From a virus, in the IMG/VR virus record IMGVR_UViG_3300046009_014677, positions 1 to 20,687 of that record: a DNA stretch of 20,687 nucleotides; one strand, given 5' to 3'. Positions 1-7,522 of the stretch are shown piece by piece. A program made the translations under genes and the position numbers. Under the pieces are notes generated by a model. The model was not told the origin of the DNA. It made no database searches and saw only the letters and a list, made by a program, of their open reading frames with translations. Each line of letters begins with the position of its first letter. Positions within the stretch are counted from its first letter, which is position 1.

Positions 1-111
1 AAGGCGGGTGGGCTTTGGCTGCTGATTGGCGATTAGCTGCCGGGCAGGCGTAAAGCCCTTTGCCTTCAAGGCCTTGGGCTTCTGGTTCAAACTGTTGCGG
101 TTCAAACTCAT
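1..111 (-). CDS. 5' end of next late gene, probably terminase large subunit (partial)
   Basis: An ATG at 111-109 overlaps the TGA stop of the preceding gene (ATGA arrangement). The frame stays open for 37 codons to the window edge, starting MSLNRNSLNQKPKALKAKG. The visible peptide is basic and Gln/Asn-rich and carries no diagnostic motif. The identity is inferred from position only: the gene directly after a small-terminase-like gene is usually the large terminase. The first codons contain two copies of AGTTTGAAC (rc of 85-93 and 100-108). A further segment (rc of 32-45) matches the flank of the attachment site near 7350. It could equally be another late gene. Confidence 0.5.
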   Translation of the reverse strand, partial: MSLNRNSLNQKPKALKAKGFTPARQLIANQQPKPTRL

Positions 112-2700: not shown

Positions 2701-2969
2701 TCAACCGCGCGATTGAAGTTCCGCCGCTGTCGCGTGATGTGGCCGAATGGGAGCTTGATGATTTTGATGGTCGGCGGCGGCGTCCCCTGCATGAATTGGA
2801 AGGGGTGCGCCTATTCAGCGATCATCAAAACGGCATTCGGCTTGTTTGGGAAATCGAAGGCAAAAAGCCGCGCGGCGTCTGCCTGAAAGCGCATGAGGCG
2901 CGCGCGCTTGGGCAGCTGCTGCTTGAGGCGGTGGATGATGTCGCACCCTATGCAAAGGCAAGCCGATGA
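2697..2969 (+). CDS. Hypothetical early phage protein
   Basis: This 90-aa protein starts at an ATG overlapping the preceding stop (ATGA). It is acidic near the N-terminus (EWELDDFDG), then RRRRP, then a compact segment with alternating hydrophobics (VRLFSDHQNGIRLVWEIEG). The C-terminal helix is HEARALGQLLLEAVDDV. The pattern suggests a small alpha/beta fold. No family is recognised and no catalytic motif is visible. Confidence 0.6.
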   Translation: MINRAIEVPPLSRDVAEWELDDFDGRRRRPLHELEGVRLFSDHQNGIRLVWEIEGKKPRGVCLKAHEARALGQLLLEAVDDVAPYAKASR

Positions 2970-3211
2970 TCCCGGCGCTTGAAGATCGCCTGATTGCTGC
3001 GGGCCTTCCTGGCTATTCTGCCCTGTGGCCTAAGTGGCAAGTGGTGTTTTCACTCTTGCAGCGGCCCCAAGGCGCAACGGTGCAGGAAATTACTGAAACC
3101 CTTGGATGCTCAAGGGTGCAAGCGCAAGGCTATGTGCGGACGGTGCGGCGTAAAGGCTATCCCGTCACTATGCGGAAACGGGTCCTTCATCTTCCGGCGG
3201 GGGACTTATGA
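2966..3211 (+). CDS. Small winged-HTH-like protein
   Basis: This 81-aa protein starts at an ATG overlapping the previous stop. Residues 25-70 read as a winged helix: WQVVFSLLQRPQGATVQEI, then ETLGCSRVQAQGYVRTVRRKG as helix-turn-recognition helix, then VTMRKRVLHL as a wing strand. Such small proteins in phages usually regulate transcription or act with replication or excision. The assignment to DNA binding comes from the pattern; the specific role is unknown. It is part of the overlapping chain 2129-3465. Confidence 0.65.
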   Translation: MIPALEDRLIAAGLPGYSALWPKWQVVFSLLQRPQGATVQEITETLGCSRVQAQGYVRTVRRKGYPVTMRKRVLHLPAGDL

Positions 3212-3465
3212 TCCCGGCGCGGCGCGTGGCGTGCGCGGATGAAATCGCGGCCATGCTTGGCTGCAAGCCGCGCGCATTTCACGCGCGGCGCGCGCGCCTG
3301 GTGGCGGCGGGCTTTCCGCCACCTCTGCCGGGGCTGGGGTGGCGGTGGGATATCCAGGCTGTGGAAGCCTGGATTTCCGCGCAATCCGGCGCGCCTGGTG
3401 CTGCTGATCCTGGCGGGATCGAGGCGCGATTGATCGAACGTGCCGGGGCAATGGCAGCGGCCTAA
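3208..3465 (+). CDS. MerR/AlpA-like HTH protein, possible excisionase or regulator
   Basis: This 85-aa protein starts at an ATG overlapping the preceding stop. Residues 7-57 (VACADEIAAMLGCKPRAFHA, then RRARLVAAGFPPPLPGLG, then WRWDIQAVEAWI) follow the winged-helix layout of AlpA, excisionase and HTH_17 proteins. In those, the aromatic/Arg 'rW' and 'vexWi' positions end the domain. Phage excisionases and DNA-packaging adaptors share this fold, so Xis is possible but unproven; the gene is about 2 kb from int. It closes the overlapping chain, and a perfect inverted repeat starts at its stop codon. Confidence 0.65.
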   Translation: MIPARRVACADEIAAMLGCKPRAFHARRARLVAAGFPPPLPGLGWRWDIQAVEAWISAQSGAPGAADPGGIEARLIERAGAMAAA

Positions 3466-3478
3466 AAATAATTTTAGG
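3461..3478. repeat. Perfect AT-rich inverted repeat between early operon and ardC
   Basis: CCTAAAAATAATTTTAGG has 7-base arms and a 4-base loop. It overlaps the stop codon of the HTH gene and lies 17 bases upstream of the -35 box of the ardC promoter. It is AT-rich and not followed directly by a U-tract, so it is a weak terminator candidate. A regulator-binding site for the next promoter is equally likely. Confidence 0.5.
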
Positions 3479-3494
3479 GCGCTGCATTTTTTTG

Positions 3495-3522
3495 TTGACA
3501 AGCCTTTTTTATTCCCTATAAA
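3495..3522 (+). promoter_or_regulatory. Strong sigma-70-type promoter for ardC
   Basis: Consensus TTGACA (3495-3500), a 16-base AT-rich spacer and TATAAA (3517-3522) stand about 50 bases before the antirestriction gene. This is the best promoter match I found in the window. No GGTAAC operator overlaps it, so it may fire immediately on DNA entry, independent of the immunity region. Confidence 0.75.
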
Positions 3523-3570
3523 TGCGGATCAGGCGAGGGATTGGCCCCGCCATCATGAAGGGATTACCCC

Positions 3571-4455
3571 ATGTCAAACCAAGCTATCTACAAGGAAGTT
3601 ACCGCCCGCATCTGCACCATGCTTGAAGCGGGCGTGCGCCCCTGGGCGCAAGGCTGGCAGGCGCAAGGCGGCGGGCGTCCGCTGCGCCATGATGGCACGC
3701 CATACAAGGGAATGAATGTGCTGAATTTGTGGGCGGCGGCGGCGCTGCGTGGCTTCACTGCGGCGCGGTGGATGACCTATCAGCAAGCGCAAGCGCTGGG
3801 CGCGCAAGTGAAGAAAGGTGCGAAGTCTGAGGCCGCGTTTTTTGTCGGCGCAATCAAGCGGACTGCTGAACGCAACGGGGAAGAAATCGAGGCAACCATT
3901 CCCTTCCTAAAAACCTATCGCGTTTTCAATGTGGATGAAATCGAAGGCCTGCCGGCGGAATATTACGCGCGGCCTGTGGTGGCGCGCTTGGATGATGGGC
4001 AGCGCCTGGCGGCGGTGGATGCCTGGATCGCGGGCACGGGCGCCAGCATCTCGCACGGTGGCGGCCGTGCCTTCTATGCTCCCTCAAGCGATACAATCCG
4101 CCTGCCTGAGTTTGGGAGTTTTGATTCTCCCGAGGCATATTACGGCACGGCCGCACATGAATTAGTCCATTGGTCAGGCGCTGCCAAGCGGTTGGATCGG
4201 ATCAAGGGCAGCGTTTTCGGTTCGCCAGATTATGCCTTCGAAGAATTGGTGGCGGAATTGGGTGCGGCGTATCTCTGCGCTGATCTTGGGATTTCGGCTG
4301 AACCTCGGGAAGACCATGCCAGCTATATTGCAAGCTGGCTTAAGGCGCTGCGCGATGATCCGCGCAACCTGTTCCGCGCGGCAAGCTATGCCGAAAAGGC
4401 GGCGGGCTACCTGCACGGCTTGCAGGAAGGCGCCAGCCTGGCGGCGGCGGCGTGA
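3571..4455 (+). CDS. ardC: ArdC-type antirestriction protein (zincin-like metallopeptidase)
   Basis: This 294-aa protein matches the ArdC family in length and order of domains. The N-terminal ssDNA-binding domain (about 1-130) includes YKEVTARICTMLEAGVRPW and a GMNVLNLW segment with MTYQQAQALGAQVKKG. The C-terminal zincin-like domain carries H196-E197-L-V-H200 in AAHELVHWSG, with the downstream EELVAELGAAYLC helix that usually supplies the third metal ligand. ArdC proteins protect incoming DNA from type I and related restriction and are spread by plasmids and phages. The start has an AAGGGA ribosome site eight bases upstream. A strong promoter of its own precedes it, fitting early expression. 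The family assignment is confident; protection of this phage is inferred. Confidence 0.92.
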   Translation: MSNQAIYKEVTARICTMLEAGVRPWAQGWQAQGGGRPLRHDGTPYKGMNVLNLWAAAALRGFTAARWMTYQQAQALGAQVKKGAKSEAAFFVGAIKRTAERNGEEIEATIPFLKTYRVFNVDEIEGLPAEYYARPVVARLDDGQRLAAVDAWIAGTGASISHGGGRAFYAPSSDTIRLPEFGSFDSPEAYYGTAAHELVHWSGAAKRLDRIKGSVFGSPDYAFEELVAELGAAYLCADLGISAEPREDHASYIASWLKALRDDPRNLFRAASYAEKAAGYLHGLQEGASLAAAA

Positions 4456-4469
4456 AGGGGGGCGCGGTC

Positions 4470-4670
4470 ATGATCCAGGAATTTATTGTCACCTTGCGCT
4501 TTCGCTTTCCGGCATGGAATGACAAAGCGGGCATTCGCTACACAATCCGCGCGATGAATAAGACGCAGGCGATAAGGTTTGCCAAAGTGCAAGCCGAACG
4601 TGACGGGCACCTTGGCGGGCACGCGGTAAGCCAAGGGCGCGCTACCTTCAAGGCTGAGGCGGCGGAATAG
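4470..4670 (+). CDS. Small hypothetical protein downstream of ardC
   Basis: This 66-aa protein has an ATG at 4470 preceded by an AAGGGGGG site. A GTG start at 4452 would overlap the end of ardC and is less likely. The sequence begins MIQEFIVTLRFRFPAWND, and its strand-helix pattern (IRYTIRAMNKTQAIRFAKVQ) suggests a small alpha/beta fold. I see no enzymatic motif. It follows ardC by 14 bases and is probably co-expressed with it. Confidence 0.6.
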   Translation: MIQEFIVTLRFRFPAWNDKAGIRYTIRAMNKTQAIRFAKVQAERDGHLGGHAVSQGRATFKAEAAE

Positions 4671-4679
4671 GTAAGGGCT

Positions 4680-4719
4680 GGCTTTGGCGATGGCAGCAAG
4701 CGCTGCCATCATCCAAGCC
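4680..4719. repeat. Strong stem-loop between small ORFs
   Basis: A perfect 9-base stem (GATGGCAGC at 4689-4697, GCTGCCATC at 4702-4710) closes an AAGC loop. The outer arms GGCTTTGG and CCAAGCC extend it with a bulge. There is no U-tract, so it is not a classical terminator. It may be an RNA-processing or attenuation element, or a protein-binding site. Confidence 0.55.
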
Positions 4720-4751
4720 AATCAGGGCTTGAAACGGGAAAGGGTGGAAAG

Positions 4752-4967
4752 ATGGCAAGTTGCCATTGGGGTGAAATGCACCAGCCGGCAAAAACTGTTT
4801 CGCAGTTGGTGCGGCAAGCTGCGCTTAATGCCTTGGGGGATGTGATCCAGGCGGCGCATGAAGCGGGCGACATCGCCACCAGAAACCGCCTCACTGATAG
4901 ATGGCATGCTGCGCTATCGGCTGGGGTTGGCACCTCGCGCGGCATTGCCAGCCTTTCCCACACATGA
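4752..4967 (+). CDS. Hypothetical protein
   Basis: This 71-aa protein starts at an ATG preceded by a GGGTGGAAAG purine-rich site. The helical centre (VSQLVRQAALNALGDVIQAA, then AGDIATRNRLTDRWHAAL) is Ala-rich. The first residues include Cys and two His (SCHWGEMH), without a complete zinc motif. No family is recognised. The stop overlaps the start of the next HTH gene (ATGA), suggesting coupled translation. Confidence 0.5.
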   Translation: MASCHWGEMHQPAKTVSQLVRQAALNALGDVIQAAHEAGDIATRNRLTDRWHAALSAGVGTSRGIASLSHT

Positions 4968-5194
4968 CCCCCTTTGAATTGCGCGCATGTCTCGGCTGCC
5001 TGCGCTGGTCGCAACGCAGCCTTGCGGAAGCGCTGGGCTGCGATGATCGGCTAGTGCGGCGCTGGGCGGCTGGGTCTTTGCCGGTTCCGCCTGTGGTGGC
5101 GGAATGGCTAGACAAGGCGGCGCGCTGGCACGCCATGAACCCGGCGCCGCAAGGCTGGCAAAGCCGGGGGCCTGGTGCGGGCGGGCGAGGGTAG
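4964..5194 (+). CDS. Small HTH DNA-binding protein
   Basis: This 76-aa protein starts at an ATG overlapping the previous stop. Residues 1-45 form an HTH: FELRACLGCLRWSQRSLAEA, then LGCDDRLVRRWAAGSLPVPP, then VVAEWLDKAARWH. The W-S-Q-R-S-L-A-x-x-L-G pattern is typical of XRE-like phage regulators in alphaproteobacteria. The rest is Gly/Pro-rich and probably disordered. The gene lies immediately before the phased repeat block 5212-5340, which makes its product a candidate ligand of those sites (inference). Confidence 0.65.
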   Translation: MTPFELRACLGCLRWSQRSLAEALGCDDRLVRRWAAGSLPVPPVVAEWLDKAARWHAMNPAPQGWQSRGPGAGGRG

Positions 5195-5211
5195 CATGGG
5201 CGCGGCGCTGG

Positions 5212-5253
5212 AACCTCTCGGCAACCTCTCGGAACCTCTCGGCGGGCTCTCGG
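5212..5253. repeat. Four helically phased CTCTCGG direct repeats
   Basis: CTCTCGG begins at 5215, 5226, 5236 and 5247, a period of 11, 10 and 11 bases. The first three are extended to AACCTCTCGG. A period near one helical turn, not a multiple of three, points to a protein-binding array on DNA and against selection on a peptide. Confidence 0.8.
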
Positions 5254-5266
5254 TGAATATTCACCG
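5251..5266. promoter_or_regulatory. Palindrome CGGTGAATATTCACCG (copy 1)
   Basis: This is a perfect 16-base palindrome. Its 12-base centre GTGAATATTCAC recurs exactly at 5329-5340, 76 bases away. It separates two different sets of phased direct repeats. It is probably an operator for a dimeric regulator. Confidence 0.75.
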
Positions 5267-5277
5267 GGCAGGCGGCA

Positions 5278-5320
5278 GGGAGAAAACCGGGAGAAAAGAG
5301 GGAGAAAAGGCGGGAGAAAT
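5278..5320. repeat. Four helically phased GGGAGAAA direct repeats
   Basis: GGGAGAAA(A/T) begins at 5278, 5289, 5300 and 5312, a period of 11, 11 and 12 bases. The motif differs from the CTCTCGG set upstream. The block lies between the two GTGAATATTCAC palindromes, about 100 bases before the integrase start. Confidence 0.8.
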
Positions 5321-5328
5321 CGCGCTCA

Positions 5329-5340
5329 GTGAATATTCAC
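5329..5340. promoter_or_regulatory. Palindrome GTGAATATTCAC (copy 2)
   Basis: This is an exact second copy of the 12-base palindrome centred near 5259. It is followed by CCGG as in copy 1, and ends 83 bases before the integrase ATG. The region 5195-5423 has no convincing gene; an open frame crossing the repeats is treated as incidental. Confidence 0.75.
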
Positions 5341-5423
5341 CGGCGCGCTTGGTGTTTCCGGCTGCGGGTGCAAGGGGGCTTTGGTGTGTCTAGCGTGGGT
5401 GCAAAGTGGGAAAGGGCGGCCGA

Positions 5424-6656
5424 ATGAGCAAAGCGGGCAAGGTGCGCCACCTGGTGGCGCGGGTGAAGGGCGGGCGGGAATATTTTTATTGGCAGCCAGC
5501 GCAAGCGCTGCGCTTGGCCGGCTGGCGCATGCAAGCGCTGCCAGGGGATCGCGCGCAAGCGCTGGCCAAGGCGGAAGCGCTGAACCTGGAAGTGGATGCC
5601 TGGCGCCGCGGTGAAGTGGCGCCGAATGCCCCGGCTGCGGCGGCGAAGCGGGGGCGGCGCGCGGCTGCGGGCAGTGTCGAGGCTCTCATTCAGGATTACA
5701 AGGTCAGCCGGTTCTGGCTGGCGCTGGCGGATCGCACGCGCAAGGAATACGGCTGGGCCCTGGATGTGATCGCGGCCTGGGCGGGGGATATGCCTGCGCG
5801 CGCCATCACGGCCCCGGCGGTGCAAGCCTTCTATGCGGGGCAGCTCCGGCGCGTGGAAGGCTCGGGCAAGGCGCGGCGGGTGGTGGAAACGCCAGCCCGC
5901 GCGGCGGCTGTGGTGCGGGTCCTGCGCCTGCTGCTGGGCGTGGGGGAAAGGCTTGGCTACCTGGCGCCGGGCGCCAATCCGGCGCACAATCCGGGCCTGG
6001 TGGTGCGGCGCAAGCGGGATCCGGTGCTGTGGTCGCCGGCGGCGGTCCAGCATATGGCGGCGGTGGCGGATCGGCTGGGTTGGCGTTCGATCGGCACGGC
6101 CATCCTGCTGAATGAATGGCTCGGGCAGCGGGAAGCCGATGTGCTGGCGCTGCCTCCCTGGCAACAGGAAGGCGGGGCCATTGTGCTGCGCCAAGGGAAA
6201 ACCGGGCGGCGCGTGGTGCTGCCGGTGCACCTGGTGCCGCACCTGGTCGCGCGCCTGAAGGGTGAAGCGGCGCGGCCCGATGCGGTCCAGGGCCTGGCGC
6301 GGTTGCTGGTGCATGACAAAACCGGGCAAGGGTGGAATGAACACACGTTTCGCCATACCTTCGCAGCAATTCGGGACATTGCAGCCAAGGGGCTTCCGGC
6401 GGACCCTGATTTGGGCCTTGCACCTGTAGCGCCCATGCCGGGCTGCGCCCAATTGCGCTTTGCCGAGTTGCGCCATACCGCCGCCACCCGCCTGCATGAA
6501 GCCGGCGTGGATGAACAGGGGATTGCCACCATCACGGGCCACACACCTGGCAGCGTGCGGGCCATCCTGGATCGGCACTATCTTGTCAGGACAGAACGCG
6601 GCGCGGAAGCCGCATTCAAGCGCCGCTTGGCGGCTGAGGAGCAAGGCAATGGATGA
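5424..6656 (+). CDS. int: Phage tyrosine integrase
   Basis: This 410-aa protein catalyses site-specific recombination between attP and attB. Residues 1-75 look like an arm-binding region and linker. Residues 85-180 form the core-binding (SAM-like) domain (VEALIQDYKVSRFWLALADR). The catalytic domain follows with R236 (GQREADVLAL), K259 (RQGKTGRR), R350 with H351 (AELRHTAATR), H373 (ITGHT) and the nucleophile Y386 (DRHYLV). The usual first His of the HxxR box is Ala347, a change seen in some phage integrases of this style. An extra WNEHTFRHTFAAIRD segment precedes the box. ATG 5424 has an AAAGGG site upstream; GTG 5406 is possible. The gene points toward the tRNA-derived att core 740 bases downstream, like lambda int toward attP. 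Confidence 0.93.
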   Translation: MSKAGKVRHLVARVKGGREYFYWQPAQALRLAGWRMQALPGDRAQALAKAEALNLEVDAWRRGEVAPNAPAAAAKRGRRAAAGSVEALIQDYKVSRFWLALADRTRKEYGWALDVIAAWAGDMPARAITAPAVQAFYAGQLRRVEGSGKARRVVETPARAAAVVRVLRLLLGVGERLGYLAPGANPAHNPGLVVRRKRDPVLWSPAAVQHMAAVADRLGWRSIGTAILLNEWLGQREADVLALPPWQQEGGAIVLRQGKTGRRVVLPVHLVPHLVARLKGEAARPDAVQGLARLLVHDKTGQGWNEHTFRHTFAAIRDIAAKGLPADPDLGLAPVAPMPGCAQLRFAELRHTAATRLHEAGVDEQGIATITGHTPGSVRAILDRHYLVRTERGAEAAFKRRLAAEEQGNG

Positions 6657-7011: not shown

Positions 7012-7290
7012 ATGGAAGAACGGACAGCATGCCTTCCGCCCGATGGTACGCTTAAAAATACAGCGCATTGGCTTAGGCGGCCCAATCGCGTGTCATCGGC
7101 GCGCTGGGCCATTTGGGATGGTGACGCTTGGCGGTTTGGGTTTGGCGGCCAAATATATGAGGGCCTTCTAATTATTTCCGCCTACCATAAAGAATGCCCA
7201 GAGCGTCTTGCGGCGCGTGGTTTTTTATATGCCGGGCCGGCTTCATCGGGTGAGGTGGATTGGATTTGGGCAGGGCCAGATGATAGGTAG
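7012..7290 (+). CDS. Hypothetical protein, last gene before attP
   Basis: This 92-aa protein starts at an ATG with an AGGGGG site seven bases upstream; GTG 7009 is a close alternative. It is rich in Trp and Gly (ARWAIWDGDAWRFGFGGQIY, EVDWIWAGPDD), hinting at a small beta-rich fold. No family is recognised. Its codons are a little more AT-rich than those of the integrase. It ends 20 bases before the AGTTTGAAC repeats of the attachment region. Confidence 0.55.
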   Translation: MEERTACLPPDGTLKNTAHWLRRPNRVSSARWAIWDGDAWRFGFGGQIYEGLLIISAYHKECPERLAARGFLYAGPASSGEVDWIWAGPDDR

Positions 7291-7310
7291 AACACCCAGG
7301 GAACAGCTAT

Positions 7311-7342
7311 AGTTTGAACTCTAGTTTGAACCAAGTTTGAAC
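7311..7342. repeat. AGTTTGAAC direct repeats, candidate integrase arm sites
   Basis: Three exact copies start at 7311, 7323 and 7334 (spacing 12 and 11). An inverted AGTTTGAA copy lies at 7457-7464 on the other side of the core. Phased repeats on both sides of a tRNA-derived core are typical arm-type integrase sites. The same 9-mer also occurs twice at the start of the gene at 111-1. Confidence 0.65.
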
Positions 7343-7391
7343 TCGGCCCGCCCGGCAGCTAATTTTTCAGTTGTAACCCTTTGAAATTGCT

Positions 7392-7436
7392 TGGTGGGCG
7401 CACAAGGATTCGAACCTTGGACCCGCTGATTAAGAG
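7392..7436 (-). other. attP: attP core: 3' 45 bases of tRNA-Lys (CTT)
   Basis: On the minus strand the segment runs from the anticodon loop (CTCTTAA, anticodon CTT) through the 3' anticodon stem, the variable loop, a complete T-arm (CAAGG-TTCGAAT-CCTTG), the acceptor strand TGCGCCC, the discriminator A and CCA. The bases upstream (TCAAT) cannot pair with TCAGC, and the D-arm and 5' acceptor strand are missing, so this is not a functional tRNA. Phages that integrate in tRNA genes carry exactly such a 3' piece to rebuild the gene. It lies between int and the tail fibre gene, as attP does in lambda. Confidence 0.88.
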
Positions 7437-7443
7437 ATTGATA
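7431..7443 (-). promoter_or_regulatory. Candidate IHF site at the edge of the att core
   Basis: The minus strand reads TATCAATCTCTTA, an exact match to the IHF consensus WATCAANNNNTTR. It overlaps the anticodon-loop end of the core and lies in AT-rich DNA (7437-7475). IHF bending at attP is known for lambda-type integrases; binding here is inferred. Confidence 0.55.
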
Positions 7444-7522
7444 GGTTTCTTTTATTTTCAAACTGTTTTCAAAGTTTGGTTCGGGCTGTTTGTATTTGAT
7501 GCAGCTTAGCTTCATGGCGATT

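Follow-up and report, generated by a model that had tools for sequence, protein, structure and literature searches.

A lineage-specific array of helically spaced repeats in a cassette slot upstream of a temperate-phage integrase gene

Immediately before the tyrosine integrase gene (int, positions 5424 to 6656, plus strand) of a temperate phage lies a block of DNA (5212 to 5340) in which two sets of direct repeats, each with about one unit per helical turn, are interleaved with two identical palindromes. The window analysed here, a virus contig of 20,687 bases, is a fragment of this phage, whose host is probably alphaproteobacterial. The reading that we favour, tentatively, is that the block is a lineage-specific, probably non-coding array lying in a cassette slot, where it may offer cooperative binding sites for protein and locally modulate int transcription.

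Early genes occupy the plus strand from about 1.3 to 7.3 kb, and tail and virion genes the minus strand from 7.5 to 20 kb. The early region comprises a repressor-like HTH (HTH_3) gene (1347 to 1739), followed by small genes, a winged-HTH-like (wHTH) gene (2966 to 3211), an excisionase-like HTH gene (3208 to 3465, PHROG 66), an ArdC antirestriction gene starting at 3571, a small HTH gene directly upstream of the block (4964 to 5194, PHROG 4779-like) and int, all on the plus strand. A scan of early proteins recognised no replication gene. The dyad GGTAACAGGTGGTTACC (GGTAAC-N5-GTTACC, 1305 to 1321), identical in the related phage L050, separates divergent Cro/YdaS-like and HTH_3 repressor genes and is likely the main lysogeny repressor operator. 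The dyad of this divergent promoter is not GTGAATATTCAC, the palindrome of the block.

The first array of the block comprises four plus-strand copies of CTCTCGG (5215 to 5253; copies at 5215-5221, 5226-5232, 5236-5242 and 5247-5253) with a spacing of 11, 10 and 11, three of them within identical 10-mers, AACCTCTCGG. Palindrome P1, CGGTGAATATTCACCG (5251 to 5266), to which no strand is assigned, is a perfect palindrome of 16 nt with the core GTGAATATTCAC at 5253 to 5264. The second array involves four plus-strand copies of GGGAGAAA (5278 to 5319; copies at 5278-5285, 5289-5296, 5300-5307 and 5312-5319) with a spacing of 11, 11 and 12. Finally, palindrome P2 (5329 to 5340), likewise strandless, is a second exact GTGAATATTCAC; with their flanks included, P1 and P2 are alike at 20 of 22 bases. 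Degenerate direct repeats of 27 to 32 bp (5347 to 5442, plus strand) then run up to the int start, pairing 5347-5377 with 5379-5409 and 5401-5415 with 5428-5442. Both arrays place their direct repeats about one helical turn (10-11 bp) apart. In the rest of the window CTCTCGG occurs once (6858, minus strand), GGGAGAAA not at all (0.26 expected), and exact GTGAATATTCAC not at all. The repeat sets and palindromes of the original prediction, with their coordinates, copy numbers and spacings, were thereby confirmed to the base.

Arrays of four copies of a 7-mer spaced by 8 to 14 nt were found in none of 300 windows simulated with an order-2 Markov model, and any 8-mer occurring three times at short gaps in 5 of 500 simulated windows. 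A scan of the window for 7-mers with at least three copies at helical spacing, from which the two-letter GGGAGAAA was excluded and counted separately, returned only the CTCTCGG array and the AGTTTGAAC repeats at attP described below. The repetition is non-random and resides at the DNA level. Because spacings of 10, 11 and 12 are not multiples of 3, they rotate the reading frame and the overlapping peptide does not repeat; this rotation, together with the non-coding-like codon score of the overlapping frame, argues for repetition of the DNA rather than of a peptide. The predicted match of the periods to DNA turns rather than codons therefore holds.

The whole block is contained in a window-specific segment of about 265 bp (about 5172 to 5438, plus strand) between the small HTH gene and int. 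This segment was delimited as an unaligned gap in blastn comparisons with the close relatives L050 and L052, and similarly with L051; a global alignment supports it as well. Among the close relatives, the two largest contigs measure 32.7 and 34.2 kb. L050 is almost the same phage as the one in the window: DNA identity between the two is 94.7% over 4-2941, 93.5% over 3200-4754, 96.7% over 4963-5171, 93.1% over 5439-6637 and 96.9% over 7311-7440. In L050 and L052 the block is absent, the stop codon of the HTH gene is followed almost at once by the ribosome-binding site and start of int, and int is intact. L051 carries an unrelated, gene-like insert at the same junction. No GTGAATATTCAC was found in the whole contigs holding L050 and L051, and the small HTH gene is kept in all three close relatives. 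Since the block is absent from two relatives and replaced in the third, with its flanks kept, the alignments mark it as an accessory insert, placed at a junction that varies. Variable cassette slots lie on either side of the small HTH gene (4755 to 4962 and 5172 to 5438); in the upstream one, L050 and L051 have one common gene (MRDISKAA...), and the window and L052 each differ. Judging from the close relatives, integration in this group of phages does not require the block, and control of int, excision and replication there are unlikely to depend on it. It could still tune int in this one phage.

The contig appears to contain attP, since a partial tRNA, as an attachment core, lies inside the phage map beside int. 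This core, between int and the tail genes, is a 45-bp 3' end of tRNA-Lys(CTT) (7391 to 7435, minus strand) that exactly matches a complete tRNA-Lys gene of a bacterial genome. Three plus-strand copies of AGTTTGAAC (7311 to 7342; copies at 7311, 7323 and 7334, spacing 12 and 11) lie on one side of the core, and inverted degenerate copies at 7456 and 7467 on the other. The attachment core and its flanking repeats are thus found at 7311 to 7475, not at the block, which is 2 kb away. The arm repeats are conserved in all three relatives. In L050 (7238-7270) the three AGTTTGAAC copies are unchanged; L051 (about 2731-2856) and L052, with integrases of 86-87% identity, have AGTTGGAAT in all three places at unchanged spacing. 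Such a concerted change is as expected of arm-type sites following their integrase. The AGTTTGAAC triplet is thus predicted to be the probable set of integrase arm-type sites, and the repeats and integrases may form a natural pair of co-evolving sites and enzyme. Neither CTCTCGG nor GGGAGAAA was found near attP (7290-7520), and neither recurs at the likely repressor operator (1305-1321). Two more exact AGTTTGAAC copies, inverted and 15 nt apart (85-93 and 100-108, minus strand), are localized far from attP at the 3' end of a frame named by inference as terminase-small-subunit-like; this inverted pair is conserved in L050 (1068 and 1083).

We performed searches for homologues using the twin dyads, each array, the peptide and the segment DNA as queries against viral contigs, phages, plasmids, a genome collection and 297 genomes of one order; not every query was run against every collection, and a pattern search detects exact matches only. 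These searches gave no second copy of the composite block. The segment DNA had no real match in phages, plasmids or the 297 genomes, which belong to the order of the integrase-bearing genome G294. The twin-palindrome pattern gave one unrelated match in viral contigs (L055) and, in a stricter form with CGG, two unrelated matches in bacterial and archaeal genomes, one intergenic (L056) and one in a 60-bp tandem repeat (L057). The GTGAATATTCAC pairs of L055 (5933-6028) and L056 (1832-1925) are 84 and 79 bp apart; the former lies directly upstream of an XRE-like gene in a phage contig and the latter is intergenic in a Magnetococcales MAG, and the intergenic DNA around both pairs looks regulatory. 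Neither CTCTCGG nor GGGAGAAA arrays accompany these two dyad pairs. The presence of twin GTGAATATTCAC in these unrelated contexts gives a hint that such paired dyads recur as a form of operator and can be regulatory. GTGAATATTCACCGG alone was found in 25 contigs, none with the arrays, mostly as chance-like coding matches or lone hairpins. Three copies of CTCTCGG occur in 35 contigs and three of GGGAGAAA in 16, never with the block dyad in the flanks inspected. Seven contigs (L099, L100, L101, L104, L105, L107 and L108) have common TC-rich DNA followed by three to five GGGAGAAA-type repeats with a period of 9.

In the favoured reading, the segment of about 265 bp would have been inserted into the variable slot between the conserved small HTH gene and int. 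Its two sets of direct repeats, spaced at one unit per turn of the helix, and the pair of identical dyads would then form cooperative sites for one or two DNA-binding proteins, bound in the manner of wHTH arrays of the BldC type or of the recombination directionality factor (RDF)/Apl type, and the bound array would modulate transcription locally into int. Protein binding, the identity of the binder and any effect on int are what we infer. Exact phased repeats beyond chance support this reading, as do the DNA-level repetition, the absence or replacement of the block in relatives that keep its flanks, int and attP, the 10-11 bp geometry, and the twin dyads of L055 and L056. Against it, the collections searched gave no homologous block, so that conservation offers no sign of selection. 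Scanning 5212-5423 revealed neither a sigma-70-like promoter nor a terminator. The lack of both repeat motifs at attP and at the likely repressor operator also counts against it.

The main rival to a local, integration-dispensable protein-binding array would be neutral, functionless spacer DNA, expanded by slippage and left in the cassette slot by recombination. The near-identical repeat units and the more degenerate repeats adjoining them count against the favoured reading by fitting replication slippage, and the restriction of the block to one phage, the lack of homologues and the slot contents that vary among relatives all agree with a neutral origin. However, one slippage event would hardly produce two distinct, approximately helical arrays together with a pair of identical dyads in GC-rich DNA, and we consider this explanation unlikely, though it deserves serious weight.

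Doubtful, too, is an RNA leader, in which the CU-rich and GA-rich repeats would pair as a long hairpin with P1 at its tip, P2 would form a second hairpin, and int translation or mRNA stability would be affected. The plus strand of 5196-5345 indeed folds at -65.6 kcal/mol (z -3.9, reached by 0 of 200 shuffles), and the z of -1.0 on the minus strand is expected if G-U pairs matter. Yet this fold ranks only 8th by z among 822 windows (150-nt, by strand) of a GC-rich genome, several coding regions do better, no Rfam match was found in the block, homologues for covariation are lacking, and no terminator follows in the interval given above. The strongest predicted RNA fold of the genome scan (-93.7 kcal/mol, z -5.9) lies within the small HTH gene, at 5001-5150 on the plus strand; the region 3251-3500 comes second. 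Folding of the block as single-strand DNA is ordinary.

The 65-aa open frame over the block (5196 to 5393, plus strand) is probably not a conserved gene, and we hold it improbable that it is a small translated cassette gene with incidental repeats. A single nucleotide separates its start from the HTH stop, GAGG precedes that start by a few bases, and L051 has a gene-like frame in the same slot; its in-frame codon score of -0.28, however, is like those of non-coding frames (int, +0.28; neighbouring HTH gene, -0.01), it has no Pfam or PHROG match, the peptide is without relatives in phages or viral contigs, and the repeats rotate its reading frame.

The original prediction had also pointed to the HTH proteins encoded at 2966, 3208 and 4964, and to co-occurrence with the block as a guide. 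One of the three genes follows the block. The wHTH gene at 2966-3211 is missing together with the block from L050 and L052, the only relatives covering both loci, and the HTH genes at 3208 and 4964 are present in block-less relatives. As the pairing amounts to one presence against two absences in related genomes, the wHTH protein is a weak candidate for the binder of the block. It has no relatives in viral contigs or plasmids, and four weak genome matches. That this gene was acquired with its own operator array before int, as a plug-in module, seems improbable as well; if true, a new regulator would have been wired onto integration with attP and the integrase unchanged.

The composite switch itself, by which this phage type would control int, excision or the start of replication, is suggested by phased repeats and dyads directly upstream of int but is very improbable, given that L050 and L052 join the HTH gene to an intact int with no block between, that GTGAATATTCAC is missing from the contigs of L050 and L051, and that the probable arm sites are at attP instead. 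Absence from close relatives with normal int control, which had been named as grounds for abandoning it, is what the relatives display as far as can be read from their DNA. What survives of the proposal is the DNA-level, helically spaced repeats and a geometry like that of cooperative HTH/RDF arrays; as a general mechanism it is largely refuted.

Should the array bind protein, it would show that temperate phages can take up operator arrays ahead of int as interchangeable cassettes, apart from the recombination sites, which are conserved. If no protein binds, the case is a caution that striking phased repeats beside an integrase may be lineage-specific, with the true recombination repeats elsewhere.

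Mosaic temperate phages harbor cassette (moron-like) slots in which unrelated small inserts occupy the same junction in sister phages; the insert here differs in being a repeat array with no evident gene. Iteron origins and parC-type centromeres are arrays of short phased repeats with AT-rich dyads, and the block resembles them in this. Unlike such elements, it is absent from L050 and L052, which must also replicate, and no Rep, ParM or ParR family match was found among the early proteins scanned, several of which are of unknown function. The arm-type sites of tyrosine integrases are likewise phased direct repeats in the int region, but the block motifs are unrelated to AGTTTGAAC, 2 kb from it, and not conserved. 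BldC-type MerR-like arrays (PMC5859096) share direct repeats about one turn apart and are bound cooperatively in a filament-like manner, whereas no BldC-like gene was identified in this phage. RdfS and BldC both assemble head to tail, each protomer taking up about one turn of DNA (PMC11963761). The direct repeats recognised by Apl and other RDFs have a spacing of 10-11 bp and are located at att, in some cases also at early promoters; those of 186 Apl are found at attP and pR-pL (PMC7498355). The excisionase-like gene at 3208 does not co-occur with the array, being present in L050 and L052, both without it. In contrast to these RDF sites, neither block motif is at attP. The RDF operator arrays (186 Apl, P2 Cox, lambda Xis, P4 Vis and RdfS), in which small HTH proteins bind cooperatively, to 6-bp operators in the case of Apl, nevertheless share with the block short direct repeats at 10-11 bp near int, and by this analogy the geometry of the block is consistent with cooperative wHTH/RDF arrays.
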